A DNA stretch of 34,499 nucleotides from contig JAFXZY010000028.1 of the NCBI GenBank assembly GCA_017541025.1, forward strand, positions 1 to 34,499, given 5' to 3'. The notes under the pieces are model-generated. The model had not been told where the DNA came from. It saw only the letters and a list, made by a program, of their open reading frames with translations, and did no database searches. The stretch comes from Bacteroidaceae bacterium. GTDB taxonomy: Bacteria; Bacteroidota; Bacteroidia; Bacteroidales; Bacteroidaceae. Made by a program: the position numbers and the translations under genes. The stretch's first letter is position 1. Every line of letters begins with the position of its first letter. Shown one piece after another: positions 5,742 through 32,382 of this stretch.

Positions 5742-5850
5742 TTGAAAGTTGAAAGTTGAAAGTTTATAGTCAGTTAAATAGTAGATAGAAGAACGTGTGA
5801 AGAAAGAATCATATTAAACTCTAAACTCATAAACTGACTTTAAACTAAAA
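5742..5850. repeat. Two heptamer arrays in the punA-thiL spacer
   Basis: TTGAAAG is repeated three times at 5742-5762. TAACTC-type heptamers (TAAACTC twice, then degenerate copies) occupy 5815-5850 and end about 13 nt before the thiL start. Both arrays have a strict 7-bp period. The stretch otherwise holds no ORF, promoter or terminator that I can see. Confidence 0.75.
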
Positions 5851-5862
5851 ACTATTTGAAAA

Positions 5863-6966
5863 TTGGAAATATCTGAATTGGGTGAGTTCGGGCTCATACG
5901 CCGACTCACGGAAGAACTGAAAATAGAGAATCCTACTACAGCAAAAGGTGTAGGAGATGATTGTGCTGTACTGTCACCCACAGAAGGAACACAGACATTA
6001 GTGACCACCGACCTTCTGATGGAAGGTGTTCACTTTGATTTGATGTATGTTCCCTTGAAACATTTAGGTTACAAGGCTGTTATGGTGAATCTGAGTGACA
6101 TCTACGCCATGAACGGCACGCCCCGACAGATAACAGTCAGCCTGGCCATTAGCAAGAAATTCACCGTAGAAGATATTGAGCAGCTCTATGACGGCATGAA
6201 ACTGGCCTGTGAAAAGCATCATGTTGACATCGTAGGCGGAGATACGACCAGCAGCCTTACCGGCTTGGCCATCAGCATTACCGCCATGGGCGAAGCATTA
6301 CCCCAAGACATCGTATATCGTAATGGTGCCAAAGAAACCGACCTTATTTGCGTCAGTGGCAACCTGGGCGCCTCATACATGGGTTTGCAATTGCTGGAAC
6401 GCGAAAAGATAGTATATAACAATCAAAAAAGAGAGTTGCAAGAGAAGATCGAGAAAGCAAAAGCCAAGGGCAACGACAAAGAACTCTCAACTCTCAATTC
6501 TCAACTCTCAACTATTGCTACGCCTGATTTTTCCGGTTATGAATACCTATTGGAAAGACAGCTGAAGCCAGAAGCCCGCAGGGATATCATAGAAGCATTG
6601 GCAAAGGCCAACATACGTCCCACCAGCATGATGGACATCAGCGACGGTCTGAGCAGCGAGCTCATGCACATCTGCTCACAGAGTAAAGTAGGTTGTCGAG
6701 TATATGAAGACCGCATCCCCCTTGACTACCAGACAGCAGCTATGGCAGAAGAGATGAACATGAACGTCACCACCTGTGCGCTGAATGGTGGCGAAGATTA
6801 CGAACTGCTCTTCACTGTTCCCCTGTCACAGAACGATGCTGTTAACGAATTGGAAGACGTTAAGGTAATAGGATATATCACCAAGGAGAGCCTGGGAAAA
6901 GTACTCATCTGCAGAGACGGCAGCGAATTTGAATTGAAAGCCCAAGGTTGGAATCCGCTTCAATAA
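5863..6966 (+). CDS. thiL: Thiamine-monophosphate kinase ThiL
   Basis: ATP-dependent phosphorylation of thiamine monophosphate to thiamine diphosphate, the last step of cofactor synthesis. Family motifs are clear: GVGDDCAVL (29-37), DLLMEGVHFDL (50-60), NLSDIYAM (76-83), GGDTTSS (125-131), MMDISDGLSSEL and the C-terminal NGGEDYELLF. The start must be TTG at 5863: an in-frame TGA lies at 5857, the next ATG is far inside conserved sequence, and the N-terminus EISELGEFGLI is the family start. At 367 residues it is slightly long for the family. The extra length is a charged insertion at about 185-220, whose DNA contains a heptamer array (6482-6513). Last gene of the sppA run. Confidence 0.93.
   Translation: MEISELGEFGLIRRLTEELKIENPTTAKGVGDDCAVLSPTEGTQTLVTTDLLMEGVHFDLMYVPLKHLGYKAVMVNLSDIYAMNGTPRQITVSLAISKKFTVEDIEQLYDGMKLACEKHHVDIVGGDTTSSLTGLAISITAMGEALPQDIVYRNGAKETDLICVSGNLGASYMGLQLLEREKIVYNNQKRELQEKIEKAKAKGNDKELSTLNSQLSTIATPDFSGYEYLLERQLKPEARRDIIEALAKANIRPTSMMDISDGLSSELMHICSQSKVGCRVYEDRIPLDYQTAAMAEEMNMNVTTCALNGGEDYELLFTVPLSQNDAVNELEDVKVIGYITKESLGKVLICRDGSEFELKAQGWNPLQ
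6482..6513. repeat. Heptamer array inside the thiL reading frame
   Basis: Four full units of AACTCTC (one variant AATTCTC) plus AACT at a strict 7-bp period, encoding ELSTLNSQLST (residues 207-217). The same heptamer style fills intergenic gaps elsewhere in the window (24494-24528, 26335-26389). Because 7 is not a multiple of 3, gain or loss of one unit would shift the thiL frame. Confidence 0.85.
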
Positions 6967-7034
6967 TTTTCACTCAAATATTTGTAGGTTTTGCAAAAAA
7001 CACGGCCCTTCCAGCACTATAAGCAAGAATTCAT

Positions 7035-7089
7035 GGTGTCATAGCTCAGTTGGTAGAGCAAAGGACTGAAAATCCTTGTATCCCCGGTT
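7035..7089 (+). pseudogene. tRNA-Phe(GAA), 3'-truncated
   Basis: The acceptor 5' strand, the D-arm (ATAGCTCAGTTGGTAGAGC), and the anticodon arm with loop CTGAAAA (anticodon GAA at 7068-7070) are intact. The sequence continues through the variable loop into CCCCGGTT. It then breaks into unrelated A/T-rich DNA: no T-arm 3' strand, no acceptor 3' strand complementary to GGTGTCA, no CCA. It cannot fold as a tRNA. Breakage in the T-loop is typical of recombination or deletion at a tRNA gene. Confidence 0.85.
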
Positions 7090-7126
7090 ACTTTGATAAC
7101 TTTTCTACTATCTTGTTTTCTTTGTG

Positions 7127-7163
7127 TAATTATCATACTTACACATGCTAACTATCATACTTA
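7127..7163. repeat. 15-bp direct repeats with 22-bp period
   Basis: TAATTATCATACTTA (7127-7141) and TAACTATCATACTTA (7149-7163) differ at one base and are 22 bp apart. Inverted, degenerate copies overlap the downstream ATPase promoter (7315-7329, 13 of 15 bases; 7301-7315, 11 of 15). Confidence 0.7.
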
Positions 7164-7200
7164 GGGAGAACAAGTAGTATGTTGAGCATTGAGAGTTTTC

Positions 7201-7257
7201 GCTAACCGCTAACCGCTTAACCCTGAACCAAAGATGCCCTCAGCCCTCAGCCTTTAG
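7201..7257. repeat. Two heptamer arrays upstream of the ATPase gene
   Basis: GCTAACC twice plus an 8-nt variant (7201-7222), then CCCTCAG twice plus CCTTTAG (7237-7257). This is the same 7-bp style as in the spacers of the sppA and gls runs. Confidence 0.65.
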
Positions 7258-7286
7258 TGTTCTGACGTTTTATGTTAATTATTATT

Positions 7287-7335
7287 ATAATACGGTTATC
7301 GTATTATGATAATTGAAGTATAATAATTATCTTTG
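7287..7335 (+). promoter_or_regulatory. Promoter and probable operator of the ATPase gene
   Basis: The -7 box TATCTTTG (7328-7335) lies 21 nt before the ATG at 7357. With a 19-nt spacer the upstream box is TATG (7305-7308). A perfect palindrome with 8-bp arms and a 5-nt centre (ATAATACG-gttat-CGTATTAT, 7287-7307) covers that upstream box, a position expected for a repressor site. The regulator is not identified. Confidence 0.6.
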
Positions 7336-7356
7336 TAGCGAGAAAAAACAAAAAGT

Positions 7357-8481
7357 ATGGTAAACAACCCTTTTATACTCTATGGTTATGAGTCAGAAAA
7401 GTACTTTTGTGACAGAAAGACTGAGACGCAAGAACTGAAACGCCTGGTTACAAACGGCAACCATGTAGCATTAATTGCACCAAGACGTATTGGCAAAACA
7501 GGATTGATTGAGAATCTCTTTCACCAGAAAGACATTCAGCGGGATTACTTCACGTTTCTCGTAGATATTTATGCCACAAAGAATATCGAAGAGTTGATAA
7601 TGGCCATGGGGGCATCCATGCTATCCTCTTTGCGCCCAAAAGGTGCCAAGGTAATACAGAAGTTTGTCAACATCCTGTCTTCTTTACGTACAGGCATTTC
7701 CTTTGATGCAATGGGAAATCCCACGTGGAATGTGGAAATTGGAGACATCCACCTGCCAAGGACAACCTTAGACGAGATATTCGAGTATATCAACACAGCC
7801 GACAAACCTTGCATTATTGCCATTGACGAATTCCAGACAGTAGCCGACTACCATGATGATAAGGTTGAAGCTATCCTGCGCACTTATATTCAGCACTGTA
7901 GAAATGCTCAGTTTATTTTTTCGGGTTCTCAACGCACCATGATGGGTGAAATCTTCCTCAGCCCGTCCAGACCGTTTTACCAAAGTACTTCGATGATGAA
8001 CATTGGCTCTATCCCCGTGGAAAAATACTCCAAGTTTGCGCAAGAGTTATTTAAGGAAGCAGACAAAGGTATTACCACCGACATAATTGAAAAAACATAT
8101 CAACGATTTGATGGCATCACATGGTATATTCAGCGCGTAATGAATGAGTTCTTTTCTCTCACGCCTCAACATGGCGTCTGCGATGAGACAATGCTGGATA
8201 CAGCTATTAGGAACATACTACGAGCAAACGAGTTCACATACCAATCCCTGCTGTTCCAGTTGCCTATAAAGCAGAAAGAATTGCTGATGGCTATTGCCAA
8301 GGAAGGAAAGGCCCAAAACCTTACATCATCAGCATTTGTCAAAAAATACCGTCTTACAAGCAGCAGTAGTGTTCAGTCGGCTATGAAGGGCTTACTGGAA
8401 AAGAACTTTCTTACCTCTAATCTTGGTATTTACGAGGTATACGACAAATTCTTCGCACTGTGGTTATTGACGCAAAGATAA
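7357..8481 (+). CDS. ATP-binding protein of the archaeal-type ATPase (ATPase_2) family
   Basis: A 374-residue P-loop ATPase. Walker A is APRRIGKT (41-48), Walker B IIAIDEFQ (153-160), and a sensor-like segment FIFSGSQR is at about 187-194. The C-terminal 80 residues look like a winged helix (TSSAFVKKYRLTSSSSVQSA, then a DKFFALWL ending). This is the layout of the ATPase_2/DUF234-like group, which is abundant and variable in Bacteroidota and archaea and whose job is unknown; AAA/STAND-type regulation has been suggested. It stands alone between a broken tRNA gene and a repeat-rich gene-free stretch, has its own palindrome-covered promoter, and reads like an accessory gene. No partner gene is adjacent. 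Confidence 0.8.
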   Translation: MVNNPFILYGYESEKYFCDRKTETQELKRLVTNGNHVALIAPRRIGKTGLIENLFHQKDIQRDYFTFLVDIYATKNIEELIMAMGASMLSSLRPKGAKVIQKFVNILSSLRTGISFDAMGNPTWNVEIGDIHLPRTTLDEIFEYINTADKPCIIAIDEFQTVADYHDDKVEAILRTYIQHCRNAQFIFSGSQRTMMGEIFLSPSRPFYQSTSMMNIGSIPVEKYSKFAQELFKEADKGITTDIIEKTYQRFDGITWYIQRVMNEFFSLTPQHGVCDETMLDTAIRNILRANEFTYQSLLFQLPIKQKELLMAIAKEGKAQNLTSSAFVKKYRLTSSSSVQSAMKGLLEKNFLTSNLGIYEVYDKFFALWLLTQR

Positions 8482-8648
8482 AACTACTTGTTCCTAAACA
8501 GTAAGATGGAAGAAGTCTGAGGGCTGATTAACCATCAACCCTATCTCTTTGCTTATTCCCCAGCCATCAGACATTAGCCTTTAGAGCATTATTCACAATC
8601 TCCTCTAATCATGTAAATAATTTTCCAAACGGCTTTTGCGATTCTATT

Positions 8649-8714
8649 TTGCCGCCACCTTAGGAAAAACTTGCCGCCTAATTAGGAAATTTTTGTCGGC
8701 ACGTTAGGCAGCAA
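8649..8714. repeat. Three 22-bp degenerate tandem units (TTGCCGCC...TTAGGAAA)
   Basis: Units start at 8649, 8671 and 8693, exactly 22 bp apart. The consensus begins TTGCCGCC, contains TTAGG around base 13 and ends A/T-rich. The third unit has drifted (TTGTCGGC...GTTAGG). The 22-bp spacing places each unit on the same face of the helix. Confidence 0.7.
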
Positions 8715-8929
8715 AAAAATCTTATGCTAAAGAACATGCCATGCCCGTTCTGCCGACTTTCCGATTGTCAAAATATTTCCTTTTTTGCACGTTTCTTCAG
8801 TTGACAGTTGACAGTTTCTGTTTCAGGTACTGTATCTTTTTGTGCAAAAACAAGCTGTTCAATTGTCTCAATTGTCACAACTCTAGCTATTTTTTTCGTC
8901 CTTTCGCTCAATACCCCCCAAAAAAACGT

Positions 8930-8981
8930 GAGTTAACTAAATCGATCAATCGAGTTAACGAAATTGATCAATCGAGTTAAC
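8930..8981. repeat. 22-bp tandem repeat built on GAGTTAAC and GATCAATC
   Basis: Two complete 22-bp units (8930-8951 and 8952-8973, two base differences) plus GAGTTAAC of a third. Each unit contains the palindrome GTTAAC, and the second also contains TTGATCAA. No CRISPR-like spacers are present. Confidence 0.75.
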
Positions 8982-9088
8982 TCACCGCATAAATGTTGTT
9001 TTTGGATGGTTCAATAGTCTCAATAAGCTGGCTCGAGCCAATTGGACCTATATATATTTCACTCTAAGTTTCTTTGATACATACAACA

Positions 9089-9109
9089 TCATTTTTTCAT
9101 AAAAAATGA
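9089..9109. terminator. A/T hairpin downstream of the DMT gene
   Basis: Perfect 9-bp arms TCATTTTTT / AAAAAATGA around CAT. It lies about 47 nt past the stop of the leftward DMT gene, so it could serve as a weak terminator. The stem is almost all A/T, so folding strength is doubtful. Confidence 0.35.
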
Positions 9110-9155
9110 AACTGAGATACTGAGATATGTATTTCGTCGAACTCACGTTAAAATA

Positions 9156-10109
9156 TCATCCTCCAAGAAAGAAAAGACTGACACCTACAACAGAGATAAC
9201 GGCTCCGATGACAGCGCGCCAGGTAATCTTCTCGTGGAAAAGCCAATACGACGGGAGCAGGATTATGATGGGTGTCATTGCCATCAGGGTGGATGCGATG
9301 CCTGCGGCTGTGTACTGAACAGCCATCAGAGAAAAGCCTACACCCACGAAGGGGCCAAAGATAGTTGTAGCTGTAGCTACGGACAAGCCTTTCTTATCGT
9401 GAAAAACAGAACGAAGAGAAACCTCTCCACGTCCCCCGCCAAGAGAAGGGGCCTTTTTTTTACGAAGACTTAACAACAAAGAGAAGCCTATGACACCGGC
9501 TATGCAACGATAGAAGTTGGCACTGAAAGGAACAAGCCACGCGGGCATTCCGTCTGTTACTTGGTAATGGTCCATACCTATTTTGCTTAGCACAAGTCCT
9601 ATTCCCTGACACATGGCAGCAGCAATGGCAAAAAGCACGCCATTAAGCGGCAGGCGAAGCGACACCTTGTGATGCTCGCCTCTTCCAAGCACGGAAATGC
9701 TAATACCGGACAGCGTTACCAGCATAGCCACTATACTCATCTTTGTCATCTGCTGTCCTAATGTTACCCATGCCATCAATGCAGCAGAAAGCGGAGCCAA
9801 TGTCATGAACAACTGGCCGAAACGAGAACCAATGATGATGTAGCATTGAAACAGGCAGAAGTCGCCAATCACATATCCCACGACTCCCGAAAGCAGCATC
9901 CACCCTATTGCCTCGGGAGAAGCACTTAAAGGTAGCATATCACCTGTTACCACACCAAACAGCACCAGTGAAAACAGGAGTGCCAGCGACATACGTAATA
10001 CGTTCAGCGTCAGGTTACCCATACGCTTGCTACCAAATTCACTCAGCAGGGCAGTCGCCGTCCACGAGAATGCCACACCTATGGAAATAAGTTCACCTAA
10101 ATAAGCCAT
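9156..10109 (-). CDS. DMT-superfamily permease (EamA domains)
   Basis: A 317-residue inner-membrane protein with about ten hydrophobic helices in two EamA halves, so a drug/metabolite transporter. The substrate cannot be read from sequence. Between helices 7 and 8 there is a basic, glycine-rich loop (residues about 217-233, KKKAPSLGGGRGEVSLR). It is encoded by a C/G-rich stretch (9422-9453) that resembles the intergenic mini-elements. The rest of the fold looks intact. It is the last gene of the leftward run that starts with two SNF-type transporters, 36 nt behind the HhH gene, and that gap is filled by heptamers. Confidence 0.85.
   Translation of the reverse strand: MAYLGELISIGVAFSWTATALLSEFGSKRMGNLTLNVLRMSLALLFSLVLFGVVTGDMLPLSASPEAIGWMLLSGVVGYVIGDFCLFQCYIIIGSRFGQLFMTLAPLSAALMAWVTLGQQMTKMSIVAMLVTLSGISISVLGRGEHHKVSLRLPLNGVLFAIAAAMCQGIGLVLSKIGMDHYQVTDGMPAWLVPFSANFYRCIAGVIGFSLLLSLRKKKAPSLGGGRGEVSLRSVFHDKKGLSVATATTIFGPFVGVGFSLMAVQYTAAGIASTLMAMTPIIILLPSYWLFHEKITWRAVIGAVISVVGVSLFFLGG
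9422..9453. repeat. C/G-rich mini-element inside the DMT gene
   Basis: The stretch has the blocks CCTCTCC, CCCCCGCC, AGAGAAGGGGCC and a T-run, like the intergenic elements at 16991-17035 and 22724-22754. It encodes the extra-looking loop APSLGGGRGEV of the permease. Insertion is inferred from similarity of style and from loop position, not from an alignment. Confidence 0.5.
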
Positions 10110-10110
10110 G

Positions 10111-10145
10111 AGAATTGAGAATTGAAAATTGGAACTGGGAGATGG
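10111..10145. repeat. Five heptamers filling the HhH-DMT gap
   Basis: AGAATTG, AGAATTG, AAAATTG, GAACTGG, GAGATGG at a strict 7-bp period. They run from just upstream of the DMT start codon to the base before the HhH stop codon (10146). Confidence 0.75.
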
Positions 10146-12448: not shown

Positions 12449-12451
12449 TAC

Positions 12452-13810: not shown

Positions 13811-13849
13811 CTAATATGGAAAAAACTGATAATTTACGCTAAAAACGCA

Positions 13850-13880
13850 CAAAAGTACAAAGTTTTTTATAACTTTGCAA
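13850..13880 (-). promoter_or_regulatory. Promoter of the SNF run with a palindromic spacer
   Basis: On the minus strand there is TTG (13878-13880), a 20-nt spacer, then TACTTTTG (13850-13857). The spacer is itself an inverted repeat with 7-bp arms, CAAAGTT / AACTTTG (13858-13864, 13871-13877). On the plus strand the right arm forms TAACTTTG (13870-13877), a -7 box for the VanZ-ThuA gene, with no good upstream box. A regulator bound here could control both directions. Confidence 0.55.
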
Positions 13881-13906
13881 CAAAAATATATGTTTATACT
13901 TACAAA

Positions 13907-15082: not shown

Positions 15083-15093
15083 TAACGGGAACG

Positions 15094-15573
15094 TTAACTT
15101 CCCCACAACTTGTATGGATTCTTGCGCATGTGGGAGTTGTAGTAACGACGGTCGCCGGTTACTTCCTTACCTATAAAGGCGGGCTTACTGAAAGCCTCAT
15201 CTTCAGAGCCTAACTCTATCTCAGCCATTATCAGGCCGTCGTTGTCGCCATGGAACTCATCCACCTCCCAAGTGTGGATGCCGTCATCGGCCTTAACCAG
15301 ATAACGGGTCTTGTCGATGATACCTGGCTCACAAATCTGCATCAGATCCTGTGCGTCCTGCAAGGAAATCTCACGTTCGAACTCGTAACGCGAGAGACCT
15401 TCAATTCCACTGGGGCCTTTAATAGTAAGGTACCCCTTGTCGTCACGAATACGAACACGCACTGTACGACCGTTTCCCGATGCGATATACCCTTGCTGTA
15501 TATGCGTATGATTATATGCCTGGCTCTTGAACTCTCCAACAACCAGGAACTTACGCTCTATCTCGAAATGCAT
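15094..15573 (-). CDS. CYTH domain protein
   Basis: A 159-residue protein of the CYTH (class IV adenylate cyclase/thiamine triphosphatase) fold. The N-terminal EIERKFLV is the ExExK metal- and phosphate-binding motif, followed by alternating basic and acidic strands (RVRIRDDKGYLTIKG, YEFEREI, KTRYLV, WEVDEF, AEIELGSEDE) that line the tunnel. Bacterial members hydrolyse triphosphates such as tripolyphosphate; the true substrate is unknown. The start is ATG at 15573. A longer frame to 15666 runs through a hexamer array and over the stop of the next small gene, and is rejected. It converges on VanZ-ThuA with an 11-nt gap and is the last gene behind prfB. Confidence 0.88.
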   Translation of the reverse strand: MHFEIERKFLVVGEFKSQAYNHTHIQQGYIASGNGRTVRVRIRDDKGYLTIKGPSGIEGLSRYEFEREISLQDAQDLMQICEPGIIDKTRYLVKADDGIHTWEVDEFHGDNDGLIMAEIELGSEDEAFSKPAFIGKEVTGDRRYYNSHMRKNPYKLWGS

Positions 15574-15592
15574 TATTCTATATATTCTAGAA

Positions 15593-15640
15593 GTTAACGC
15601 TTTCGTTATCGTTATCGTTGACGTTCCCGTTAACGTTTTA
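15593..15640. repeat. Hexamer array (GTTAAC/GTTATC/GTTCCC) between the CYTH and 45-aa genes
   Basis: Eight consecutive 6-bp units: GTTAAC, GCTTTC, GTTATC, GTTATC, GTTGAC, GTTCCC, GTTAAC, GTTTTA. The last contains the stop codon of the small membrane peptide gene. The same hexamers recur at 16955-16990 and inside a reading frame at 30130-30159. Confidence 0.8.
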
Positions 15641-16909: not shown

Positions 16910-16954
16910 TTTTGTTTATTCTTTTTAGTTAAGTAACGAGTTAACGAGTTGTTT

Positions 16955-17041
16955 GTTTTAGTTTTAGTTTTCGTTCCCGTTATCGTTCCCCACCTCCCAT
17001 TTGGGAGAGGAGGGGTTAGGGGTTAGAGAGGGGCCGTTCCC
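16955..17041. repeat. Hexamer array plus C/G palindrome between prfB and the acyl-CoA synthetase gene
   Basis: Hexamers GTTTTA, GTTTTA, GTTTTC, GTTCCC, GTTATC, GTTCCC (16955-16990) run into a C/G-rich element with the palindrome CTCCCATTTGGGAG and the blocks GAGGGGTTAGGGGTTAGAG. GTTCCC returns at 17036. This fills nearly all of the 134-nt gap. An 8-mer pair AACGAGTT occurs just before it (about 16935-16950). Confidence 0.75.
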
Positions 17042-17043
17042 GT

Positions 17044-20198: not shown

Positions 20199-21605
20199 CT
20201 ATCGCCCTATCCAGCTTTCGGGATTCAGTTTGGTAGTTTCCTTGCGGAGTTGGAAATGGAGGACGCATTTGCCCGTTCCATCGTCGGCAACGGTGCCGAT
20301 GATGTCCTTGGTATTAACCTTCTGACCCTTGGAGACCGTTACGGAGGAAAGGTTACAGTAAACGGATATGTAACTGCCGTGACGGATGAGCACATTGCGT
20401 GAGCCTCCAAACTGGAATACTGCCGAAACTTCACCGGTGAAGATGGAACGCGCACGGGCTCCGGGACGGCCCACATAGTTGGTTCCCTTATTTTCGAGCT
20501 GCACATTCTTCAGTCCGGGAACGTTATATGTACCAAAGCGGTTTCCTATCATGTACTGGCCGGTAATGGGAACGGGCAGGCGGCCACGATTCTGCTCGAA
20601 GGTGCCGTTCAGCTGCCGATCCTCGGCTGTGAGCCATGTATCGGGCTTCAGAGGCGTAGGCTTGCTGGTTGACTTGGGAGCGGGCGTAGTTTTTCCACCC
20701 GTCTTTCCTGCCTTTTTACGTGCAGCTTCCTCGGCAGCTTTCTTGCGAGCTGCCTCTTCAGCAGCCTTCTTTCGGGCCGCAGCTTCAGCAGCCTTTCGGG
20801 CCTGCTCTATCTCATAAGCTATCAGGTCGTCAATCTTCTTGTTCAGCGCATTCAGTTGCTTCTGTTGCTCGGCAATCTTTCCTGCTAATCCCGACTCCTG
20901 CTTCTTCAGGCCCTCCACTTTTTTCTTCTGCTGCACTTGCTGAAAGCCCAAATCCTTACGCTGCAGCATTACCTCGTGAACCAGACTGCTCTTCTTGCTC
21001 TTGGTATTCAGGAGTTTATTCTGCTCTTCCAGCAATTCGGCCTGCTTCCTGAGAATCTGCTCGCCTAAGTTATGCTCGAACGACACATATTCCTTGGCAA
21101 AGCGGGAACGGCGGAACATCTGCTTGACATTCTGGGCTGAAAGGATAAAGATCAGGGATGAATTCTGGTTCTTCTGGGTACGGGCATAGCGCATAGCCTG
21201 CTTTAGTTTCTCGCGTTTTTCCTTCAGTTCACCCTCCTTCTCACGAATCTTTCCCTGTAGTTGAATGGCAAGCGAATCCAATTCATCTATTTCCTTTTCC
21301 AGTCCTACAATCTGGTCCAGACGGTTATTCAACTGAATACCTATGTAATGGATGTTCTGCTGGCCTACCTTCACTTGCTGCTTGGTCTTGGTCAGCTCAG
21401 CCTTGGATTTCTTAAGGGTATTCTGCAGCTCCACCTTCTGTTTCTGCAACGCCTTCACCTTCTTACTGTTCTGGGGAAAAACGGCTATGGGAAGCAGTAG
21501 GAAAATGGCAAGGAGAGCCGTTTTTATGTAAGGAGTTAAAGGAGTTAGAGGAGTTAAAGGAGTTAAAGGAGTTAAAGACGATACTTTAGACTTCTTGAAC
21601 GTCAT
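20199..21605 (-). CDS. EnvC-like murein hydrolase activator (coiled coil + degenerate LytM/M23)
   Basis: 468 residues from ATG 21605. The signal peptide h-region is about 28-44 (ALLAIFLLLPIAVF); a long coiled coil follows (about 46-290), ending in an Ala/Lys/Glu-rich stretch made of repeats of KKAAEEAAR. The C-terminal LytM/M23 domain (about 350-468) ends LNPESWIGR as in EnvC. The usual HxH zinc site is not intact (HFQ), so it probably activates cell-wall amidases during division rather than cutting peptidoglycan itself. The residues before the h-region are five LTP repeats encoded by 9-bp DNA repeats. An alternative ATG at 21719 overlaps the upstream stop (ATGA) but would add 38 residues encoded by 19-bp repeats. 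Last gene of the leftward run. Confidence 0.85.
   Translation of the reverse strand: MTFKKSKVSSLTPLTPLTPLTPLTPYIKTALLAIFLLLPIAVFPQNSKKVKALQKQKVELQNTLKKSKAELTKTKQQVKVGQQNIHYIGIQLNNRLDQIVGLEKEIDELDSLAIQLQGKIREKEGELKEKREKLKQAMRYARTQKNQNSSLIFILSAQNVKQMFRRSRFAKEYVSFEHNLGEQILRKQAELLEEQNKLLNTKSKKSSLVHEVMLQRKDLGFQQVQQKKKVEGLKKQESGLAGKIAEQQKQLNALNKKIDDLIAYEIEQARKAAEAAARKKAAEEAARKKAAEEAARKKAGKTGGKTTPAPKSTSKPTPLKPDTWLTAEDRQLNGTFEQNRGRLPVPITGQYMIGNRFGTYNVPGLKNVQLENKGTNYVGRPGARARSIFTGEVSAVFQFGGSRNVLIRHGSYISVYCNLSSVTVSKGQKVNTKDIIGTVADDGTGKCVLHFQLRKETTKLNPESWIGR
21531..21575. repeat. Five 9-bp units encoding (LTP)5 in the EnvC-like signal region
   Basis: AGGAGTTAA x5 (second unit ...TAG) on the plus strand, read as TTAACTCCT on the coding strand. 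The period is a multiple of three, so unit gain or loss keeps the frame. They sit immediately before the hydrophobic core of the signal peptide. Confidence 0.85.
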
Positions 21606-21630
21606 TGGGGAGCATGTGTAGAACAAACGT

Positions 21631-21708
21631 CCTAGCGAAGCGATAACTCCTAGGCCGCAGGCCGATAACTCCTTAGCGAAGCGATAACTCCTTAGCGAAG
21701 CGATAACT
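21631..21708. repeat. 19-bp tandem units with GNA-triloop hairpins
   Basis: Four units of CCTTAGCGAAGCGATAACT (18, 22, 19 and 19 bp; the last two identical). Each normal unit contains GCGAAGC, a GC-GAA-GC mini-hairpin. The divergent second unit has GGCCGCAGGCC instead, a 4-bp stem closing a GCA loop. They lie between the DUF4292 stop and the preferred EnvC-like start, and remain in an open frame. Confidence 0.8.
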
Positions 21709-21715
21709 CCTTCCT

Positions 21716-22687
21716 TCATTTCGCCAAACTCATGATTTTCCTGAACGCAGTATCTAAGGAAACCTCGGTGTAACGGTTCTTATTTATCTCGGTACGCGTC
21801 TCCCAACTGGAATCGGGCTTAACGGAACTGATACGGAAGGTTGCCTCTACATTTTCGTATAACAGTTCAAAGGAGAGTTTCATTGTACCAGGGAAATCCT
21901 GCTCACCCAGTTTGGTCCAGTCGGCATACTGCCATTTTACGACAGCATCCTCGGAATAGGCTCGCGAAAAACGTGTTTCTTCCACCAGTTGGTTTGCTGC
22001 ATTCAACACGAATGTTAAGGCAACATTTCTGTCCTGCGAATTAACCAGTTTAACGCCATCGGCATCTTTCTTCAGGTTGTAACTACCGCTCTCAGGCGCA
22101 TTACCATCACCATTCAGGACAAACAATTCATCCCAAAACAGGGATTGGAACGTATAGAAATCTATTCCCGCCTCGCGGAAGAAATTCACTTCGTCATAGT
22201 CGCACTTCACATACTGATGGTTCATACGGTCCACCAACATCATGTAGTCTGGTGTCAGCTCCAGTCGGCCAACCTCCATCAGGCCCAATGCCACCAGTGA
22301 TATCTGTATAACATCGTTGCGTTTCATCCTCAAGGAACCGCCCACCCTGGTACTATTCTTGGAGGTACTTAGGTTAAGGCTCATCTTTGCAGATATGCAG
22401 GGTTCTGTTACGCGCTTTGAGTTAACAGCCTGAACGACATCGACTAAACTGGGTTGCTTTTCCAACATGGGGTTACCACCAGCAACAACGTTCTTCTTGC
22501 TGCCACAGGAAGCGAGAAACAAGACAGTGGCGAAAAGGAGAAGCAGCCCCTCTCCCCGCTTTTGCCCACCGTCGCAAAGCTCCCCAATCGCTACGACTCC
22601 GCGATTGCCCAAAGGGGAGAGCCAACTAGTAGAAAACACTTGTCCTACACGTGAGAATGTTCTGTTAACAATATGAGTAAATTTCAT
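21716..22687 (-). CDS. DUF4292 lipoprotein
   Basis: 323 residues from ATG 22687. A lipobox LASC (LLLLFATVLFLASCGSKK) predicts a lipid-anchored periplasmic or outer-membrane protein. The body shows a LolA/LolB-like beta pattern (ISAKMSLNLS, GGSLRMKRNDVIQISLVALGL, VGRLELTPDYMMLVDRMN), as in DUF4292. That suggests lipoprotein- or lipid-handling, unproven. The n-region is abnormally long (about 48 residues). Its middle part, SPLGNRGVVAIGELCDGGQ, is encoded by a palindromic G/C-rich element (22550-22621) that looks inserted. A TTG at 22717 would lengthen it further. It lies between the TPR and EnvC-like genes, an arrangement common in this phylum. Confidence 0.85.
   Translation of the reverse strand: MKFTHIVNRTFSRVGQVFSTSWLSPLGNRGVVAIGELCDGGQKRGEGLLLLFATVLFLASCGSKKNVVAGGNPMLEKQPSLVDVVQAVNSKRVTEPCISAKMSLNLSTSKNSTRVGGSLRMKRNDVIQISLVALGLMEVGRLELTPDYMMLVDRMNHQYVKCDYDEVNFFREAGIDFYTFQSLFWDELFVLNGDGNAPESGSYNLKKDADGVKLVNSQDRNVALTFVLNAANQLVEETRFSRAYSEDAVVKWQYADWTKLGEQDFPGTMKLSFELLYENVEATFRISSVKPDSSWETRTEINKNRYTEVSLDTAFRKIMSLAK
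22550..22621. repeat. 72-bp palindromic element inside the DUF4292 signal region
   Basis: The outer arms CTCTCCCC (22550-22557) and GGGGAGAG (22614-22621) are perfect complements. The inner arms CAATCGC / GCGATTG (22585-22591, 22601-22607) close a 9-nt loop. 72 bp is exactly 24 codons, so insertion preserves the frame. It lies between the N-terminal Met segment and the hydrophobic core of the lipoprotein signal. Confidence 0.75.
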
Positions 22688-22723
22688 CTTGAATTGTATA
22701 ATAAAGACATTGTCCAAATCTCC

Positions 22724-22754: not shown

Positions 22755-22774
22755 TTTCACTATTACCTTTCCCT

Positions 22775-24493: not shown

Positions 24494-24528
24494 CCTAATC
24501 TCTAATCTCTCAACTTTAAACTCTAAAC
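24494..24528. repeat. Five heptamers filling the dut-TPR gap
   Basis: CCTAATC, TCTAATC, TCTCAAC, TTTAAAC, TCTAAAC. They begin at the base after the TPR start codon and end one base before the dut stop codon. There is no other sequence in the gap. Confidence 0.85.
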
Positions 24529-24529
24529 T

Positions 24530-24964: not shown

Positions 24965-24974
24965 GTCTTTTTTT

Positions 24975-26330: not shown

Positions 26331-26334
26331 CTTA

Positions 26335-26389
26335 TCTAAACTCACAACTCTAATCTCTATTCTCTAATCTCTAAACTCTAAACTCAACA
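26335..26389. repeat. Eight heptamers filling the glsB-dgt gap
   Basis: TCTAAAC, TCACAAC, TCTAATC, TCTATTC, TCTAATC, TCTAAAC, TCTAAAC, TCAACAT at a strict 7-bp period, from 4 nt upstream of the dgt ATG to the base before (and touching) the glsB stop. The unit sequence matches the array at 24494-24528. Confidence 0.85.
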
Positions 26390-27379: not shown

Positions 27380-28197
27380 ATTTCATAAACTTTACTCCGC
27401 ACCCACTGCGCCCATTGCAATGGGGTTTGGGACTTGTCAAATGTTTGCCATGGAATTGGCTTTCCTATCTTAACTGTATAAACGTTCCCGTTACTCTTAT
27501 ACATTTCGTCAGGCAAAAGAATCTGCGCAAAGTTGGGCAGATGAAATTTCTTACAGAAACGGGCCACCTTATAGAAACGCGGCGTTAGCCGGCCTTCAAA
27601 ATGTATGGGAACAACATCGCGCTGATGCTGTACGGATTTTGTGATAAATGATTTGCTCCAGGCAACGTCCCTTATCAAACCTTCGTCATTCTTACGACTG
27701 CACAGACCCGCAGGAAACATTATAACGTGGTTCTCGCCGGAGAATGCACTCTCCACCATAGCCGGAAAATTCCTTCCGTTTTTACCAAGTTTGTTAATAG
27801 GGACGCACAATGGAGCCAGTCCTTTCAGGTTCATCAGCAAATCATTAACCAGATATTTTATTTTGCCTTCGTACTGTTCACCTATCACCCAACCTAAGGT
27901 TACGCCATCTACAGCTCCTAAAGGATGATTGCTCACGAAGGTGTAATAGCGACCGTCGGAAGGCAAGTTTTCCCGTCCTTCCACATTAACCCTGACACCC
28001 AAGTACTCTACACAATGCTTACAAAAATCCACACCCACATATCCCTGACGCAGGTAAACATTGATGAACTCCTGATGAATGATACGTTTAAGCCAGTTGA
28101 TGACAAACTGGGGAATATACTTTGCCTTCTTACCCGCCCTGTTACGGATAATTTTGTCAAGGTCCACTTCCTGAATAGTACATTCTTGCTCCGACAT
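27376..28197 (-). CDS. glsA: GlsA-like O-acyltransferase (glycine lipid synthesis)
   Basis: A PlsC/hemolysin-like acyltransferase of 273 residues from ATG 28197. In Bacteroides GlsA adds the second acyl chain to the hydroxyl of N-acyl glycine. Motif I is NHPLGAVD (90-97), an H-x5-D spacing where classical PlsC has H-x4-D. Motif III is FPAGLCSRKNDEG. The segment PINKLGKNGRNFPAMVE lies between them. The C-terminal VYTVKIGKPIPW is also family-like. A longer frame starts at 28257 but overlaps the upstream gene's stop; SEQECTIQEVDLDKII is a better start. glsB follows with ATGA overlap. Glycine lipids are membrane lipids of this phylum. Confidence 0.82.
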   Translation of the reverse strand: MSEQECTIQEVDLDKIIRNRAGKKAKYIPQFVINWLKRIIHQEFINVYLRQGYVGVDFCKHCVEYLGVRVNVEGRENLPSDGRYYTFVSNHPLGAVDGVTLGWVIGEQYEGKIKYLVNDLLMNLKGLAPLCVPINKLGKNGRNFPAMVESAFSGENHVIMFPAGLCSRKNDEGLIRDVAWSKSFITKSVQHQRDVVPIHFEGRLTPRFYKVARFCKKFHLPNFAQILLPDEMYKSNGNVYTVKIGKPIPWQTFDKSQTPLQWAQWVRSKVYEI

Positions 28198-28201
28198 GGT
28201 T

Positions 28202-28561
28202 TCAGTTGATAGTAATTGGGCGGTTGTTAATAAAATAATGTCCGCGCGGCAGTCCATTCAGCCAGTTCACACCTTTAGTCAGGCGTACTGCCATAAAGAA
28301 AACGCCGGTACTGGTATAAATAGGAAGGATCTGGTTATGGTCGCTCTGAACCTGAACAGCCCTGCCAATGGTCTGAATCTTGACGGGAAAAGTAGAACTG
28401 CTCATACGTCCTGTCCGGCCAAGGTCCTGTATTTTCTCCACAAGGGGAATTGTATCAGGTTTGACTATTGCACGCTTCTTACGCACAGAAGCGCCCATGG
28501 GTAACAACACCAATAGTGCTAAAGTCAAAACAACCAGACGAACAACTGTGCTTTTTAACAT
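28202..28561 (-). CDS. Small secreted protein of unknown function
   Basis: 119 residues. A signal peptide (about 1-24, VVRLVVLTLALLVLLPMGAS) is followed by a basic patch (VRKKRA) and a short body. The last 40 residues (VQVQSDHNQILPIYTSTGVF... GLPRGHYFINNRPITI) resemble the small beta-sandwich ends of Bacteroidota secreted proteins (T9SS-CTD or DUF3244-like), but without the terminal basic residues of a sorting signal. I do not recognise the family with certainty. First gene of the leftward run; glsA starts 4 nt after its stop, so it may be tied to the lipid genes. Confidence 0.65.
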   Translation of the reverse strand: MLKSTVVRLVVLTLALLVLLPMGASVRKKRAIVKPDTIPLVEKIQDLGRTGRMSSSTFPVKIQTIGRAVQVQSDHNQILPIYTSTGVFFMAVRLTKGVNWLNGLPRGHYFINNRPITIN

Positions 28562-28588
28562 AAAATCCTTCTACACCTTTACAAATTA

Positions 28589-28620
28589 CAAAAGTACATC
28601 TTTTACCTTAAAAGGACAAA
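28589..28620 (-). promoter_or_regulatory. Promoter of the leftward gls-dgt-dut-envC-like run
   Basis: On the minus strand there is TTTG (28617-28620), a 20-nt spacer and TACTTTTG (28589-28596), about 28 nt before the ATG at 28561. No internal promoter of this quality was seen down to 20199, which fits one long transcript. Confidence 0.7.
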
Positions 28621-28659
28621 TATTTTAAAGAAAATATACTTTGATTTACATAAAATAGC

Positions 28660-28667
28660 TATCTTTG
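28660..28667 (+). promoter_or_regulatory. -7 box for the membrane AraC-type regulator
   Basis: TATCTTTG, 32 nt before the ATG at 28700. The best upstream TTTG (28640-28643) is only 16 nt away, shorter than usual, so the promoter is probably weak or activator-dependent. Confidence 0.45.
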
Positions 28668-28699
28668 CCCGCGAATCTCTCAAGAGTTGACAAAAGAAA

Positions 28700-29803
28700 A
28701 TGAGTTCAAACACGATACTTCTGATACTGGCATGTAGTGCAACCGCCCACCTGATGGTGAGTGCTACAACTGGTATTTACGCACGTCACAAGGTACAATA
28801 TCTCTGTCTTGCCTGGGTAAATGGCATCTTTGGATTCCTATTGGCATTTGTAGCATTTCTCAGCCATCAGATAGCCGAGGGCGAGCCTGGCATCATGCAT
28901 CCTGCCATGATTATGCCCCTATTATGTGGTGTATATCTTCAGAGTATCTTCCCCCTTAGCATTCCCATGCCAGGTTTCCTACAGGTAAAGCGTATGGTTA
29001 AATATGCCAGACCTGTTATAGCTCTTATTGCGGTTTATACTGTGGCAAGACTTTTGGGAAGCAAGATTGTTATCATGAACAGTTTTAACGAAGTGATTCA
29101 GAATCTGCTTTCCAGCGATGTGTTACTGCGTATTCTGGCTCTTGGAATCAGTATCTACTACATTGTCAATATATTCCTGCTTCCTCGCAGACTGGTTCAT
29201 AAAACCGACATCCCCAGCTATCTGATCGGCTATTGTGTGTGCTTAGGCTTCTCGGTGGTTTTCTTCACCATCGTCTCCATTCTGTATAATCCTACAGCAC
29301 TCATGATTTACATCATAATCTTCACACTTCTGAATACGTATCTGGCTTTTCGCACCTTGGAAGAAATTGCCATTCATTTGCCCCAGCCAGTCTTGATAGA
29401 GGTAGAGGAAGAGCCTACAGAGGACACTGTGGAGAAAGCAGAAAAGGAGGATTTTAACGAAGCCAACCTGTTACGTTTTAAGCGTCTTGAATTCTGGATG
29501 CAAAACCACAAGGAAGAATGGACCAATAACACCTTTGGCCGAGACAAGCTCTGCGAGGCTGTTGGCTACAACCGTCACCTTATTCTTCAATGTGTACGAA
29601 GCCAGGGATATAATAATGTACACGAGTACATCAACCGTTACCGCATAGAGGAACTCAAGTACTTAATCACGAAAGGCAAAATATCTGCTCTTGGCGAAGT
29701 TGTTGATGCCGGCTTCGGAACCATTCAGACAGCCCGCTCCTGTTTCCTGAAGATGGAAGGTACCACCTTAGATGAGTTCTGGAACCTGTACAAGAAAGAT
29801 TAA
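28700..29803 (+). CDS. Membrane-anchored AraC-type transcriptional regulator
   Basis: 367 residues. The N-terminal 225 hold six to seven hydrophobic helices, with no periplasmic sensor domain of size. An acidic linker follows (about 233-255, EVEEEPTEDTVEKAEKEDF). The C-terminal 100 residues form an AraC-like double helix-turn-helix: FGRDKLCEAVGYNRHLI, then EYINRYRIEELKYLI, then LGEVVDAGFGTIQTARSCF and LDEFWNLY. This architecture places DNA binding at the membrane face, with sensing through the helices. It is divergent from the gls run, with starts 139 nt apart, so that run is a candidate target. It ends at a strong bidirectional terminator. Confidence 0.82.
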   Translation: MSSNTILLILACSATAHLMVSATTGIYARHKVQYLCLAWVNGIFGFLLAFVAFLSHQIAEGEPGIMHPAMIMPLLCGVYLQSIFPLSIPMPGFLQVKRMVKYARPVIALIAVYTVARLLGSKIVIMNSFNEVIQNLLSSDVLLRILALGISIYYIVNIFLLPRRLVHKTDIPSYLIGYCVCLGFSVVFFTIVSILYNPTALMIYIIIFTLLNTYLAFRTLEEIAIHLPQPVLIEVEEEPTEDTVEKAEKEDFNEANLLRFKRLEFWMQNHKEEWTNNTFGRDKLCEAVGYNRHLILQCVRSQGYNNVHEYINRYRIEELKYLITKGKISALGEVVDAGFGTIQTARSCFLKMEGTTLDEFWNLYKKD

Positions 29804-29808
29804 AAAGA

Positions 29809-29846
29809 ATCCACGGCAACCGTTAATTGGTCACCGTGGATTTTTT
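29809..29846. terminator. Bidirectional intrinsic terminator
   Basis: ATCCACGGCAACC pairs with GGTCACCGTGGAT (8 bp, two mismatches, 3 bp) over a 7-nt loop. TTTTTT follows on the plus strand and, on the minus strand, CTTTTT. It lies between the convergent AraC-type gene and the 51-aa gene. Confidence 0.85.
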
Positions 29847-29876
29847 ATATAAACCTAAAAAGTAATGCAGGGGAGA

Positions 29877-30032
29877 TTATTCATCTTCCAACCAATCATC
29901 CCATTCTACGCGTTCCCTGCCCAATACAACATTATCGGGGTCAGCATCTTCATCATACATGCTGACTGCCACCATTTTACTCACCTGTATCTCACAAACC
30001 TGCATGGCAGGCATCATATATTCCTTTTTCAT
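29877..30032 (-). CDS. 51-aa acidic peptide of the MKKxYxxP type
   Basis: ATG 30032 to TAA 29877. The N-terminus MKKEYMMPAMQVCEIQVSKM matches a pattern seen in many short Bacteroidota ORFs (MKK-x-Y-x-x-P-x-x-x-V). The C-terminal half is acidic and Trp-rich (DEDADPDNVV, then EWDDWLEDE at the end). There is no hydrophobic signal. It begins 1 nt after the stop of the large T9SS protein gene and so is probably the last gene of that run. Function unknown; the conserved head and variable acidic tail would also fit a small precursor or a partner peptide. Below most length cut-offs. Confidence 0.7.
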   Translation of the reverse strand: MKKEYMMPAMQVCEIQVSKMVAVSMYDEDADPDNVVLGRERVEWDDWLEDE

Positions 30033-30033
30033 A

Positions 30034-32382
30034 TTACTTAAGAATCTTTTTACCGTTAATAATGTTAATACCCTTCTGCAACTTGTTGATACGCTGACCA
30101 GCCACGTTGTAAATTGCTTCTGCTCCTTCGTTAAGGTTATCGTTAACGTTAACGTTTTCTATGGCAGTTGCATCTTCTTCGTTAAAGTAGAATGCCTTAA
30201 CGTTAGAACCTTGATCTTTGAGATAACAGCGGTTTTTACCAACAATCGGAAGTTTATTGCCCTGAGCAACCTTAAAGAAACCTACCTTGCCGTTGTTGTT
30301 CTGAAGAACATAACTACCCACAGGAGCATGTTCGCCATTAGGCTCATAAACACCGGTGAGGAGACCTGCTTCTGGAGTACCCTTGACATAAATGCCGGTG
30401 ACATCCAAATTAAATGCTTGAGGAGCCTCAACAACAACAGGAGTATTAGCAGGGATGATACCATTCTGAACAGGCTCGAGAGCCAAAACGCCATTAGTCT
30501 GACCAGTAACAGTACTTGCAGTAACAACAGACTGATAGTTGGAAGGAATAGCTACTGTGAAGGGAGCGCAGAACGTGCCTTTAAGGGCTTCACTAACACT
30601 AACGGTTGCATTTGCCAAGTCACCGGCCTCAACCACAACATCCTGACCAGCCATACTAATGCCAATATGAACATAGAAATAGTCATCCTTGATGGTACCA
30701 TTCAAAACAACAGGAATGGGACCCATTTGCGGGCCAACCCACATATTTACGCCTTCTTTGTCTCCTGCGGTTATATTAATATTACCATCATAAGAGAAAT
30801 TGCCTTGATCATCTATTGTGAGGCCTGAAAGTGTAATGTTACCTACATTTATAGTTGTGCTACCATCATCAAGAATGAAGTTCTTCAGATTAAAGTCGAT
30901 GGTACCATTCTTATTATCGGTCACTTCAATAGGAGCTGCGACAGGAGCATTTTGTGCACCATTTACAGAAATGCCGATATACTTGTTATAGACAACAGTT
31001 TCTGGTGCAGTAGGATCAGGATAAACAAGTTCGATATCGTCAATATACAAGTGGTCACCTGCTTGTCCTTCACCAGGATCAGCATTGGTAGAGATGTTGA
31101 CAAGGATGTACATCTGTCCATTGGTAGTATTACCTGTCGGAACAAAAGGAATCGTCAGCTCTACCCATTCACCATTGGTAGAGGGGAAATCATACACCGC
31201 TTCGGCAATAGCCAACTTTTTATTATTCTCATATTCTTGGTTGTCATTTTCAGCGTTACTATATGTTCTGTAGTTACCATTTCCATGAACAATCGCTTGC
31301 ACATGTGCATTGGGATGTTGGGCATTAACTGCTGCAGGAACGAACTTCACCCATAGCTTGAGGGCAGAAGGAACCTTAGAAAGTGTTTCGCTCTTCTTTG
31401 TATCTGATGTTTTGGAATAGTTATAGTTACCATTATCAGAAGCAGACATTGCACCTGCATTGACACAACCTGTTGTAAGATTGCCTTGTGCAACAACCCC
31501 AAAAACAGTGCGTGACCAAATGTCAGCACAATATAAACCGTCACTTCCAGGACGTCCACCCTCTACTATCGCAACCTGCACTGCACTCGCTGTGCTCGCT
31601 AAACCACCCTCTGCTGTCTCGAATGAATTCCAATTGTTGGGTGCATGATTATCTGAAGTAACGCTGCTCCAGTTTTCAAAGTCACCATTACCAATCTGAG
31701 TTACGCCAGCAGCGGCATCATCAATGACAGTGAGGATATAAGAACCTTCACCCTCACCTGACTTTGCCTTAATGTAGCAAGAACCGTTCTTTTTAAGCGT
31801 CACTGTTCCATCAGCTGCAACAGTAGCGACATTGGTGTTGCTCGACTCATAGGTTATTGTTTCTGTAACATTATCTGTCTTCAGCGTCTCATTTTTATAC
31901 GTGCCAACACTAAGGTTTACATAAACATGATCATTGCCATATACAAGAGAAGGTGCGCCCTTCTTTTGAAACTTAGCATAGAGATTTTGAACTGTAGGGT
32001 TGTTTTCTTCTGTTGAATTCGCAGTAAACTTCACCTCATATGAAGTGTTAGTAGAGACTGCGTTGCCCGTACACTGTGCATTATCAAACCAGCCAACAAA
32101 TTCAGATCCGTCATTTGCCTGTGCATAGACATAATAAGTATGAGTGGGAGCTGTCGACAAAGCAGTAGATGTAGAAGTGCTGTTTTTTGCTTCCGAAGAT
32201 CCTTCCTTGTATGAAGGATTCTTGATTGAACTTTTACTTGCATAAACTTTTCCTTCTCCAACAGCAGTTGCCACCACCTTTGAATAATAGGTGCTTCCTC
32301 CTGCTAATGCCGACGTGCTAAACATGGTGAACATCACCACAAAAAGACTTAAAAGCCTCGTAATTTTACATTTCATAATCAT
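30034..32382 (-). CDS. Large secreted multidomain protein with calycin-like domain and T9SS-type C-terminus
   Basis: 782 residues. Signal peptide 1-27 (LLSLFVVMFTMFSTSALA). About 30-135: InlB-type repeat-like (AQANDGSEFVGWFDN). About 145-220: bacterial Ig-like (TYESSNTNVATVAADGTVTL). About 225-460: carbohydrate-binding-like beta-sandwich ending HLYIDDIELVYP, as in PCMD-type domains. About 465-595: calycin-like domain (IDFNLKNFILDDGSTTINVG, VNMWVGPQMGPIPVVLNG). Residues about 760-782 end IYNVAGQRINKLQKGINIIN and a basic tail, the T9SS type A sorting pattern. It is therefore probably an outer-surface or secreted protein, perhaps glycan-binding. A short Asn/Val linker (ENVNVNDNLN) before the sorting domain is encoded by a hexamer array. 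It sits 24 nt after the DUF4105 gene. Confidence 0.8.
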   Translation of the reverse strand: MIMKCKITRLLSLFVVMFTMFSTSALAGGSTYYSKVVATAVGEGKVYASKSSIKNPSYKEGSSEAKNSTSTSTALSTAPTHTYYVYAQANDGSEFVGWFDNAQCTGNAVSTNTSYEVKFTANSTEENNPTVQNLYAKFQKKGAPSLVYGNDHVYVNLSVGTYKNETLKTDNVTETITYESSNTNVATVAADGTVTLKKNGSCYIKAKSGEGEGSYILTVIDDAAAGVTQIGNGDFENWSSVTSDNHAPNNWNSFETAEGGLASTASAVQVAIVEGGRPGSDGLYCADIWSRTVFGVVAQGNLTTGCVNAGAMSASDNGNYNYSKTSDTKKSETLSKVPSALKLWVKFVPAAVNAQHPNAHVQAIVHGNGNYRTYSNAENDNQEYENNKKLAIAEAVYDFPSTNGEWVELTIPFVPTGNTTNGQMYILVNISTNADPGEGQAGDHLYIDDIELVYPDPTAPETVVYNKYIGISVNGAQNAPVAAPIEVTDNKNGTIDFNLKNFILDDGSTTINVGNITLSGLTIDDQGNFSYDGNINITAGDKEGVNMWVGPQMGPIPVVLNGTIKDDYFYVHIGISMAGQDVVVEAGDLANATVSVSEALKGTFCAPFTVAIPSNYQSVVTASTVTGQTNGVLALEPVQNGIIPANTPVVVEAPQAFNLDVTGIYVKGTPEAGLLTGVYEPNGEHAPVGSYVLQNNNGKVGFFKVAQGNKLPIVGKNRCYLKDQGSNVKAFYFNEEDATAIENVNVNDNLNEGAEAIYNVAGQRINKLQKGINIINGKKILK
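30130..30159. repeat. Hexamer array inside the T9SS protein gene
   Basis: GTTAAG, GTTATC, GTTAAC, GTTAAC, GTTTTC: the same units as the intergenic arrays at 15593-15640 and 16955-16990. Here they encode ENVNVNDNLN between the last folded domain and the sorting domain. Six is a multiple of three, so the frame is safe. Confidence 0.8.

Follow-up and report, generated by a model that had tools for sequence, protein, structure and literature searches.

Why should one bacterial contig carry short tandem repeats of several unit lengths in gap after gap between its genes, and again inside reading frames? The question is raised by a stretch of 34,499 nucleotides from a Bacteroidaceae bacterium (the window), which is contig C50 of a 3.28-Mb genome assembled in 95 contigs and 83.85% complete. 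By ThiL its nearest named relatives are mostly Bacteroidaceae and Prevotellaceae bins from the ruminant gut (85-91% identity), and its source is an uncultured gut bacterium of rumen type. A sequence-only reading of the window had proposed an active duplication process that targets, or is tolerated at, gene boundaries. The reading that we favour, at roughly even chances, is that dispersed arrays of short units, mostly of seven bases, are being added, stretched, shrunk and replaced, by seeding in gaps and by change in whole units.

Such arrays are far more abundant than expected by chance. We scored them with a lag-match detector (match +1, mismatch -2, score of at least 12) in the window and 40 further stretches of the same genome, which together make 710,755 bases or 22% of the genome (87,191 bp or 12% between genes, 623,564 bp genic). 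This sample holds 130 period-7 arrays compared to about 0.2 in ten dinucleotide shuffles made segment by segment, which places the counts far above shuffled sequence, a comparison that the sequence-only reading had proposed. Of the arrays, 103 lie between genes and 27 are genic (0.1 and 0.1 on average in the shuffles). The gene caller was simple and some of the genic ones may sit in false genes; per base, the arrays are about 27 times denser in gaps than in genes. Scaled up from the sample, the whole genome is estimated to carry about 600. Their copy number has a median of 4.4 and reaches 36, and 46 distinct unit words are found among the 130. Period 7 is the commonest class, with other periods also in excess: 6 (17 arrays), 8 (10), 9 (8), 12 (15), 14 (15) and 22 (12). 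The habit of several periods of lying between genes, first noticed in the window, holds across the sample. Five of the 20 stretches in the second batch (C18, C22, C41, C74 and C78) were picked for prior pattern matches. This choice did not inflate the density, since the second batch has 16.7 period-7 arrays per 100 kb compared to 19.9 in the first, which was taken by contig number.

Are the arrays changing? We compared them site by site with relatives, with one genome per species and the relatives' arrays scored at a lower threshold than those of the window genome. The array at 24495 measures 35 bp in the window, 42 bp in G041 (the closest relative found), 35 bp with other letters in G042 and 28 bp in G043, and is absent from G044. 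The compared stretch at the 26348 site is 38 bp long in the window and 31 bp in G041, consists of different units in G042 and is absent from G043 and G044. Other periods behave alike, with 48 bp in the window compared to 39 bp in G041 for the 9-mer array at 21530, and 31 bp compared to 25 bp for the hexamer stretch at 30129. The gap before thiL holds TTGAAAG and TAAACTC units in the window, TTCATAA in G041 (locus L002), TTGARAG-type units in locus L003, GGTTAGC and AACAGTA in L004, and TTCAAAA in L005.

Across the sample, 26 of 113 array clusters could be anchored on both flanks in G041 and not one of them is identical there: 6 keep the unit but are changed, 3 are one letter apart, 10 have a different unit and 7 face no array, although window:5742 was scored among the latter by classifier error (G041 has three TTCATAA units in that gap) and L113:8218 and L113:8618 share one gap that is counted twice. 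Locus L121, for which G041 gave a single weak match, was left out. In the reverse direction, 30 of 117 clusters of G041 were anchored (5 same unit but changed, 7 one letter apart, 10 different, 8 none, 0 identical), but we rely on the forward direction because loci L002 and L166, and L132 and L167, overlap and some places in G041 are tallied twice. Unit numbers therefore do differ between relatives, and the active duplication that had been inferred from the window alone is borne out by whole-unit differences. Change by whole units within arrays is well supported by these alignments; slippage would be its probable cause.

Some of this pattern is inherited. Among 48 of 375 gaps that could be paired with an orthologous gap in G041, 12 are occupied in both genomes, 5 in the window genome only, 5 in G041 only and 26 in neither (odds ratio 12.5, p = 0.0003, with all four length classes agreeing in direction). 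The median difference in gap length is 91 bp for the 22 pairs with an array in at least one of the two genomes and 5 bp for the remaining 26 (p = 0.002). The units at paired sites are 1.08 letters apart compared to 2.05 when permuted (p = 0.001), with identical words in 5 of 12 pairs, so that the pattern is in part one of descent in which the unit of an array changes as a whole.

That units are inherited at orthologous sites fits the main rival explanation, a slippage preference specific to the lineage. On this view arrays would only grow from chance duplications on site, mismatch repair would ignore 7-nt loops, and words would be shared because the polymerase or repair system of the lineage prefers them. 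We consider this possible, though clearly less probable than not. It also fits the composition of the units: words of the TTRRRRR type make up 0.31 of the genome's own arrays compared to 0.062 of random 7-mers, as a sequence preference would produce. In addition, the prevalence of heptamers in many bacteria has been ascribed to an interaction with the polymerase (Mrazek 2007, cited in PMC4679880 and PMC4692102).

The difficulty for purely local growth comes from the words themselves. The sequence-only reading had missed that a given site has different words in different genomes, yet that unlinked sites within a genome have words in common. The rate at which two unlinked arrays from the same genome share a word is 0.031 compared to 0.021 when genome labels are permuted by stretch, a value never reached in 500 permutations (maximum 0.026); without G041 the rates are 0.034 and 0.020 (maximum 0.025). 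Pairwise, sharing is 0.0323 within the window genome, 0.0257 with G041, 0.0124 with G018, 0.0051 with G016 and 0.0019 with G346, and random intergenic 7-mers share words at 0.0020. A slippage preference would thus have to differ within the genus. A scan for three TTRRRRR units gave 161 matches in the window genome (overlapping matches counted), any match in 65 of 197 other genomes across the phylum (maximum 40), in 70 of 150 others in the family and in 50 of 60 others in the genus (maximum 411, in G018); because the pattern covers part of the words and a long array yields several overlapping matches, zeros do not prove that arrays are absent and counts are not array counts. A backward-pattern control was useless, since the pattern is nearly symmetrical. 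Among the matches listed, the words look genome-specific: TTARRGA in G016, TTAGGGG and TTAGAGG in G418, TTGAAAG and TTGAAAA in G400.

The preference would also have to be off in G004, which belongs to the same genus and has no period-7 array in 139,435 bp sampled. The densities per 100 kb are 18.3 in the window genome, 18.4 in G041 (first batch), 12.7 in G018, 9.1 in G016, 10.7 in G346 (another genus) and 8.3 in G230 (another class), and show a range rather than averages, as the genomes were selected by pattern count (high in G018 and G346, zero in G004), and many stretches of G041 and some from G018, G016 and G230 were taken on account of the matches in them.

Sites without a seed point in the same direction. 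In L127, one of two stretches chosen as array-rich (the other being L113), about 95 bp at 15512-15600, mostly two arrays, interrupt sequence colinear with G041, and the G041 site opposite L127:15512 holds no copy of either unit. For 16 arrays (10 gaps) with a partner gap that lacks a period-7 array, the unit is present in the partner gap for 4, with 1.5 expected; for the other 12, the unoccupied gap does not hold even one unit copy. Arrays that are neighbours (at most 60 bp apart) have unrelated unit words, with a mean distance of 2.59 letters in 37 pairs compared to 2.60 for random words. Because words are shared at unlinked loci, neighbouring words are unrelated and partner sites can be seedless, the data suggest that arrays may also be started from words elsewhere in the genome. 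In the array-rich stretch L113, at 8218-8503, a 36-unit array of TTAGCGG, TTAGCGA and TTAGAGG abuts an AACGGTA array, and the corresponding gap in G041 has TTAGAGG and AAAACG types.

The same facts could be explained by a dedicated writer, that is, a putative polymerase, reverse transcriptase or mobile element that lays heptamer arrays from a genome-specific template. Telomerase and the repeat-making reverse transcriptases of defence systems offer a comparison. Genome-specific word sets, the presence or absence of arrays within one genus, the seedless sites and the TT found in nearly all units (0.95 of own arrays compared to 0.80 at random) would all agree with it. Nonetheless, one template fits badly with 46 words in 130 arrays, and dispersed recombination accounts for the same facts, so that we regard such a writer as quite unlikely. 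A broader form, in which gaps of some Prevotellaceae are filled with heptamer arrays from genome-specific words by a dedicated process that is switched on or off within the genus and through occasional in-frame arrays gives new repeat peptides to unrelated proteins, seems to us unlikely. If dedicated writing were true, each species would have its own 'dialect' of words.

We therefore return to seeding followed by whole-unit change, which could proceed as follows. A gap between genes would first receive a few units of a word common in the genome; another array may be their source, through template switching or patch repair. The array would then change by whole units, as seen in the comparison of species, probably through slipped-strand or unequal exchange, and the letters of its units would drift together. 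Finally, the distribution of arrays suggests that selection purges coding-sequence arrays that do not leave the frame open and also thins those in divergent gaps, where promoters lie, and that arrays elsewhere act as near-neutral spacer. An array retained in a gene would give a short repeat peptide rich in S, T, N, Q and L, as in ThiL.

Several observations weigh against the seeding part of this scheme. Seeding from other loci is what we infer, and the signs of copying are weak: 18-mers that carry internal variants and are common to unlinked arrays number 67 compared to 55.6 +/- 5.4 in unit-order shuffles (maximum 63 in 30), a mild excess and weak evidence of copying between arrays. The common words occur as single copies in masked gaps only 1.2-fold over expectation (1652 compared to 1379). 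An insertion would look no different from the relative having lost an entire array, two of the 10 partner gaps that lack period-7 arrays contain repeats with other periods, and a slippage preference of the lineage could also yield shared words. Two specific routes of spread were rejected. Arrays do not appear to move as multi-word blocks, since no ordered pair of neighbour words recurs (0 of 39), in a weak test where permutations average 0.7. Nor do they appear to be carried with duplicated flanks: some repeated 150-bp flank is found for 75 of the 130 arrays, with many of these matches being other arrays, and only 14 of the 130 share a flank that lies next to an array of the same unit.

Do the arrays then have a function at gene boundaries? 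Array-bearing gaps amount to 49 of 313 co-directional, 8 of 53 convergent and 6 of 59 divergent gaps, with 67 arrays in 41,750 bp, 12 in 8,670 bp and 6 in 16,491 bp, respectively. Co-directional arrays show no preference for the start codon downstream (18 of 67 within 15 bp compared to 15.3 +/- 2.9 with random placement) or for the stop codon upstream (21 of 67 within 15 bp compared to 15.1 +/- 3.2). Because the distances to codons are those of random placement inside gaps and arrays are sparse in divergent gaps, we reject targeting of gene boundaries; of the two options left by the sequence-only reading, tolerance between genes is the one that stands. Arrays make up more than half of 10 and more than 80% of 2 of the 63 array-bearing gaps in the sample. 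The window was likewise said to have several gaps made of nothing but whole units, which is true of two, at 24494-24529 and 26346-26389.

The scarcity in divergent gaps (6 arrays in 16.5 kb compared to 67 in 41.8 kb of co-directional gaps) would also be expected of selected regulatory or spacer elements, with arrays between the genes of an operon tuning translation or mRNA stability. Consistent with such a role, arrays fold more weakly than random intergenic sequence (mean -0.041 compared to -0.094 kcal/mol per nt), and 57% of them compared to 21% have no structure at all. This low structure follows from composition, as arrays are not less folded than their own shuffles (-0.032 kcal/mol per nt), and selection for unfolded RNA is rejected. 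With start and stop codons not preferred, and arrays absent or replaced in the closest relative, we find a regulatory role improbable. No function is needed to explain the arrays.

What happens when an array lies in a gene? A period of 7 passes through all three frames, and a unit that contains a stop therefore closes every frame. Among the 27 genic period-7 arrays, 6 have no gene covering the whole array and 21 could be placed in frame: 14 have the stop-bearing strand opposite the coding strand, 4 contain a stop in the coding-strand unit, and 3 are free of stops on both strands. The translations of 10 of the 21 contain STLN or SILN, as in the seven-residue repeat LSTLNSQ. Examination of 110 thiL loci left 90 distinct ones with a resolved start after removal of duplicates, of which 30 have an array in the ThiL loop (periods 6-10, low threshold) and 17 have one upstream of thiL. 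Loop units include AACTCTC, the 8-mer AACTCGTC, AGCTCTC and CAAATCT. The loop of the window (6400-6530), ELQEKIEKAKAKGNDKELSTLNSQLSTIATPDF, is more like Prevotella-labelled loops at about 70-73% ThiL identity than like those of the closest relatives (L002-L005), a likeness that may be due to recombination.

A different route into a protein is seen at 21492-21719 of the window, where a composite element consists of a 9-mer array, a unique core and a 19-mer array. It is present in the window and in G041, with further copies, whole or partial, elsewhere in both genomes, and occupies the place where G042, G043 and G044 have the ATG of an M23/EnvC-like gene. The frame is open through the element to an ATG that overlaps the stop of the previous gene, which adds about 60 residues including (LTP)n. 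Of the three genes in which units had been placed in frame, thiL and a long protein gene hold such arrays, and the EnvC-like gene does so only because its frame runs through an inserted element that the three relatives lack at this site.

The arrays of the window were checked with Tandem Repeats Finder and by direct reading, and those first listed exist at or near their positions after small corrections: the fit is close for 5742, 6482, 24495, 26335, 21530, 21633 and the hexamers, and looser at 5815-5850, 7201-7257 and 10111-10145. With the scoring of the genome sample, 6 period-7 arrays are found in the window, or 5 if the mismatch penalty is made harsher. On the forward strand, the gap before thiL holds TTGAAAG x3.3 (5742-5764) and about three imperfect copies of TAAACTC type (5815-5850), and AACTCTC x4.6 (6482-6513) inside thiL is read as LSTLNSQLST. 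At 7200-7252 the heptamers CGCTAAC and GCCCTCA form two short arrays that are separated by unrelated sequence and fall below the later detector score; CAGTTGA x2.7 follows at 8798-8816. On the reverse strand, TGAGAAT x3.3 (forward-strand letters) between the EamA and HHH-protein genes spans 10109-10131, ending at 10131 rather than at 10145 as first read, and G041 has an AATTAAC-type array at this site. A hexamer/12-mer array of GTTAAC type (15593-15637) lies near the start of the CYTH-domain gene.

Also on the reverse strand, the composite gap at 16930-17043 combines 8-mer, hexamer (GTTTTA/GTTCCC, 16955-16990) and 7-mer repeats with a dispersed palindrome, and the unaligned stretch at this place is 0 bp in G041, 2 bp in G042, 8 bp in G043 and 47 bp, of other repeats, in G044. 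The palindrome-bearing repeat, CTCCCATTTGGGAG...GAGGGGC, sits at 16986-17034 between stretches of the GTTCCC hexamer repeat; G041 has several copies of it and other relatives have at least one. Further reverse-strand arrays are the two halves of the composite element, namely the 9-mer AAGGAGTTA x5.3 (21530-21577, forward-strand letters), which encodes the (LTP)n of the extended M23/EnvC-like frame, and the 19-mer x4.1 (21633-21712); a CTAAACT-type heptamer array that fills the gap between the dUTPase and TPR genes (24495-24529); a CTCTAAT/CTCTAAA-type array that fills the gap between the GNAT and HD-domain genes (26335-26387); and a GTTAAC/GTTATC hexamer array inside the long Big_2/calycin-like protein gene (30129-30156). 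Pfam matches show ordinary genes around the arrays: LpxK, ThiL (AIRS), EamA, CYTH, release factor, AMP-binding enzyme, M23 peptidase, and the TPR, dUTPase, HD, GNAT and Big_2/calycin-like proteins. Two further observations concern the window. Repeats of 22 bp, GAGTTAACTAAATCGATCAATC, lie at 8930-8982, and period 22 exceeds expectation across the sampled 22% of the genome as well (12 arrays). A tRNA-like gene at 7035-7101, with an Rfam tRNA match and no ARAGORN match, loses its likeness to the tRNA of relatives within the T-arm; after it come short arrays and an AAA-type ATPase gene.

Could the arrays be an artefact of assembling metagenome bins? The incomplete genome in its 95 contigs, and some arrays at or near contig ends, would allow it. 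We consider this highly improbable, as arrays occur at the same sites in separate assemblies and Prevotella sp. ne3005 (L033), whose record is not titled a metagenome-assembled genome, has three period-7 arrays in 21 kb, including the one of ThiL.

Heptamer repeats in bacteria are already known, and the likeness to them drawn by the sequence-only reading is supported. The short tandemly repeated repetitive (STRR) sequences of cyanobacteria, another phylum than that of the window genome, are degenerate intergenic heptamers of several kinds in one group, with CCCCAAT as a unit; we know of no site-by-site comparison of them between relatives. No array of CCCCAAT was found among the own, six-sample and thiL-locus arrays examined.

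TAACTGA direct repeats are described in Beggiatoaceae, cyanobacteria and five Bacteroidetes (MacGregor 2015, PMC4679880), in the main genome mostly within several nucleotides upstream of a start codon. Ours are like them in being heptamer direct repeats, mostly intergenic with some in reading frames, and unlike them in using dozens of words per genome instead of one and in having no start-codon preference; TAACTGA arrays number 0 of 130 in the own sample, 0 of 117 in six other samples (none from G004; G041 first batch) and 0 of 120 in thiL loci. According to Mrazek 2007 as cited in the same paper, heptamers are the commonest class in most genomes, and the present arrays share with the long simple sequence repeats of 5-11 nt described there both an excess of units and the predominance of heptamers. 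The GGGAATC and GGGGA(C/T)T repeats of Xanthomonas and Nostoc (PMC4692102) are likewise abundant intergenic heptamers whose length and sequence vary between related organisms. Unlike ours, each is a single G-run word lying nearer the 5′ neighbouring gene, and no array of either was found among the own, six-sample and thiL-locus arrays examined. Bacterial heptamer repeats are also reported in PMC4060949. In phase-variable contingency repeats the number of units varies among cells or strains of a single species and switches expression; in our data, with one genome per species, the differences in unit number are those between species. The tandem repeats of Borgs (PMC9879509) evolve rapidly, arise independently and lie in gaps and in frames where they give repeat peptides, as here; Borgs are extrachromosomal elements of archaeal hosts (Methanoperedens), whereas our arrays have mainly 7-base units and lie on bacterial contigs, beside thiL, dUTPase and release factor genes on a contig of Bacteroidales type. 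Among the papers listed in searches of mostly open-access literature, judged by title and the start of the abstract, we found no description of multi-word heptamer arrays in Prevotellaceae or of unit replacement at orthologous sites, which does not establish that they are new.

What makes tandem repeats of seven bases so common in certain bacteria is a standing question. A genus with about 18 arrays per 100 kb in one species and none in 139 kb of another makes it testable, and relatives that can be aligned site by site allow a search for gene differences, a measurement of gain and loss, and a test of local against copied origin. The arrays mark fast-changing gaps and may help in strain typing, and ThiL and the M23/EnvC-like protein illustrate how non-coding repeats enter proteins.

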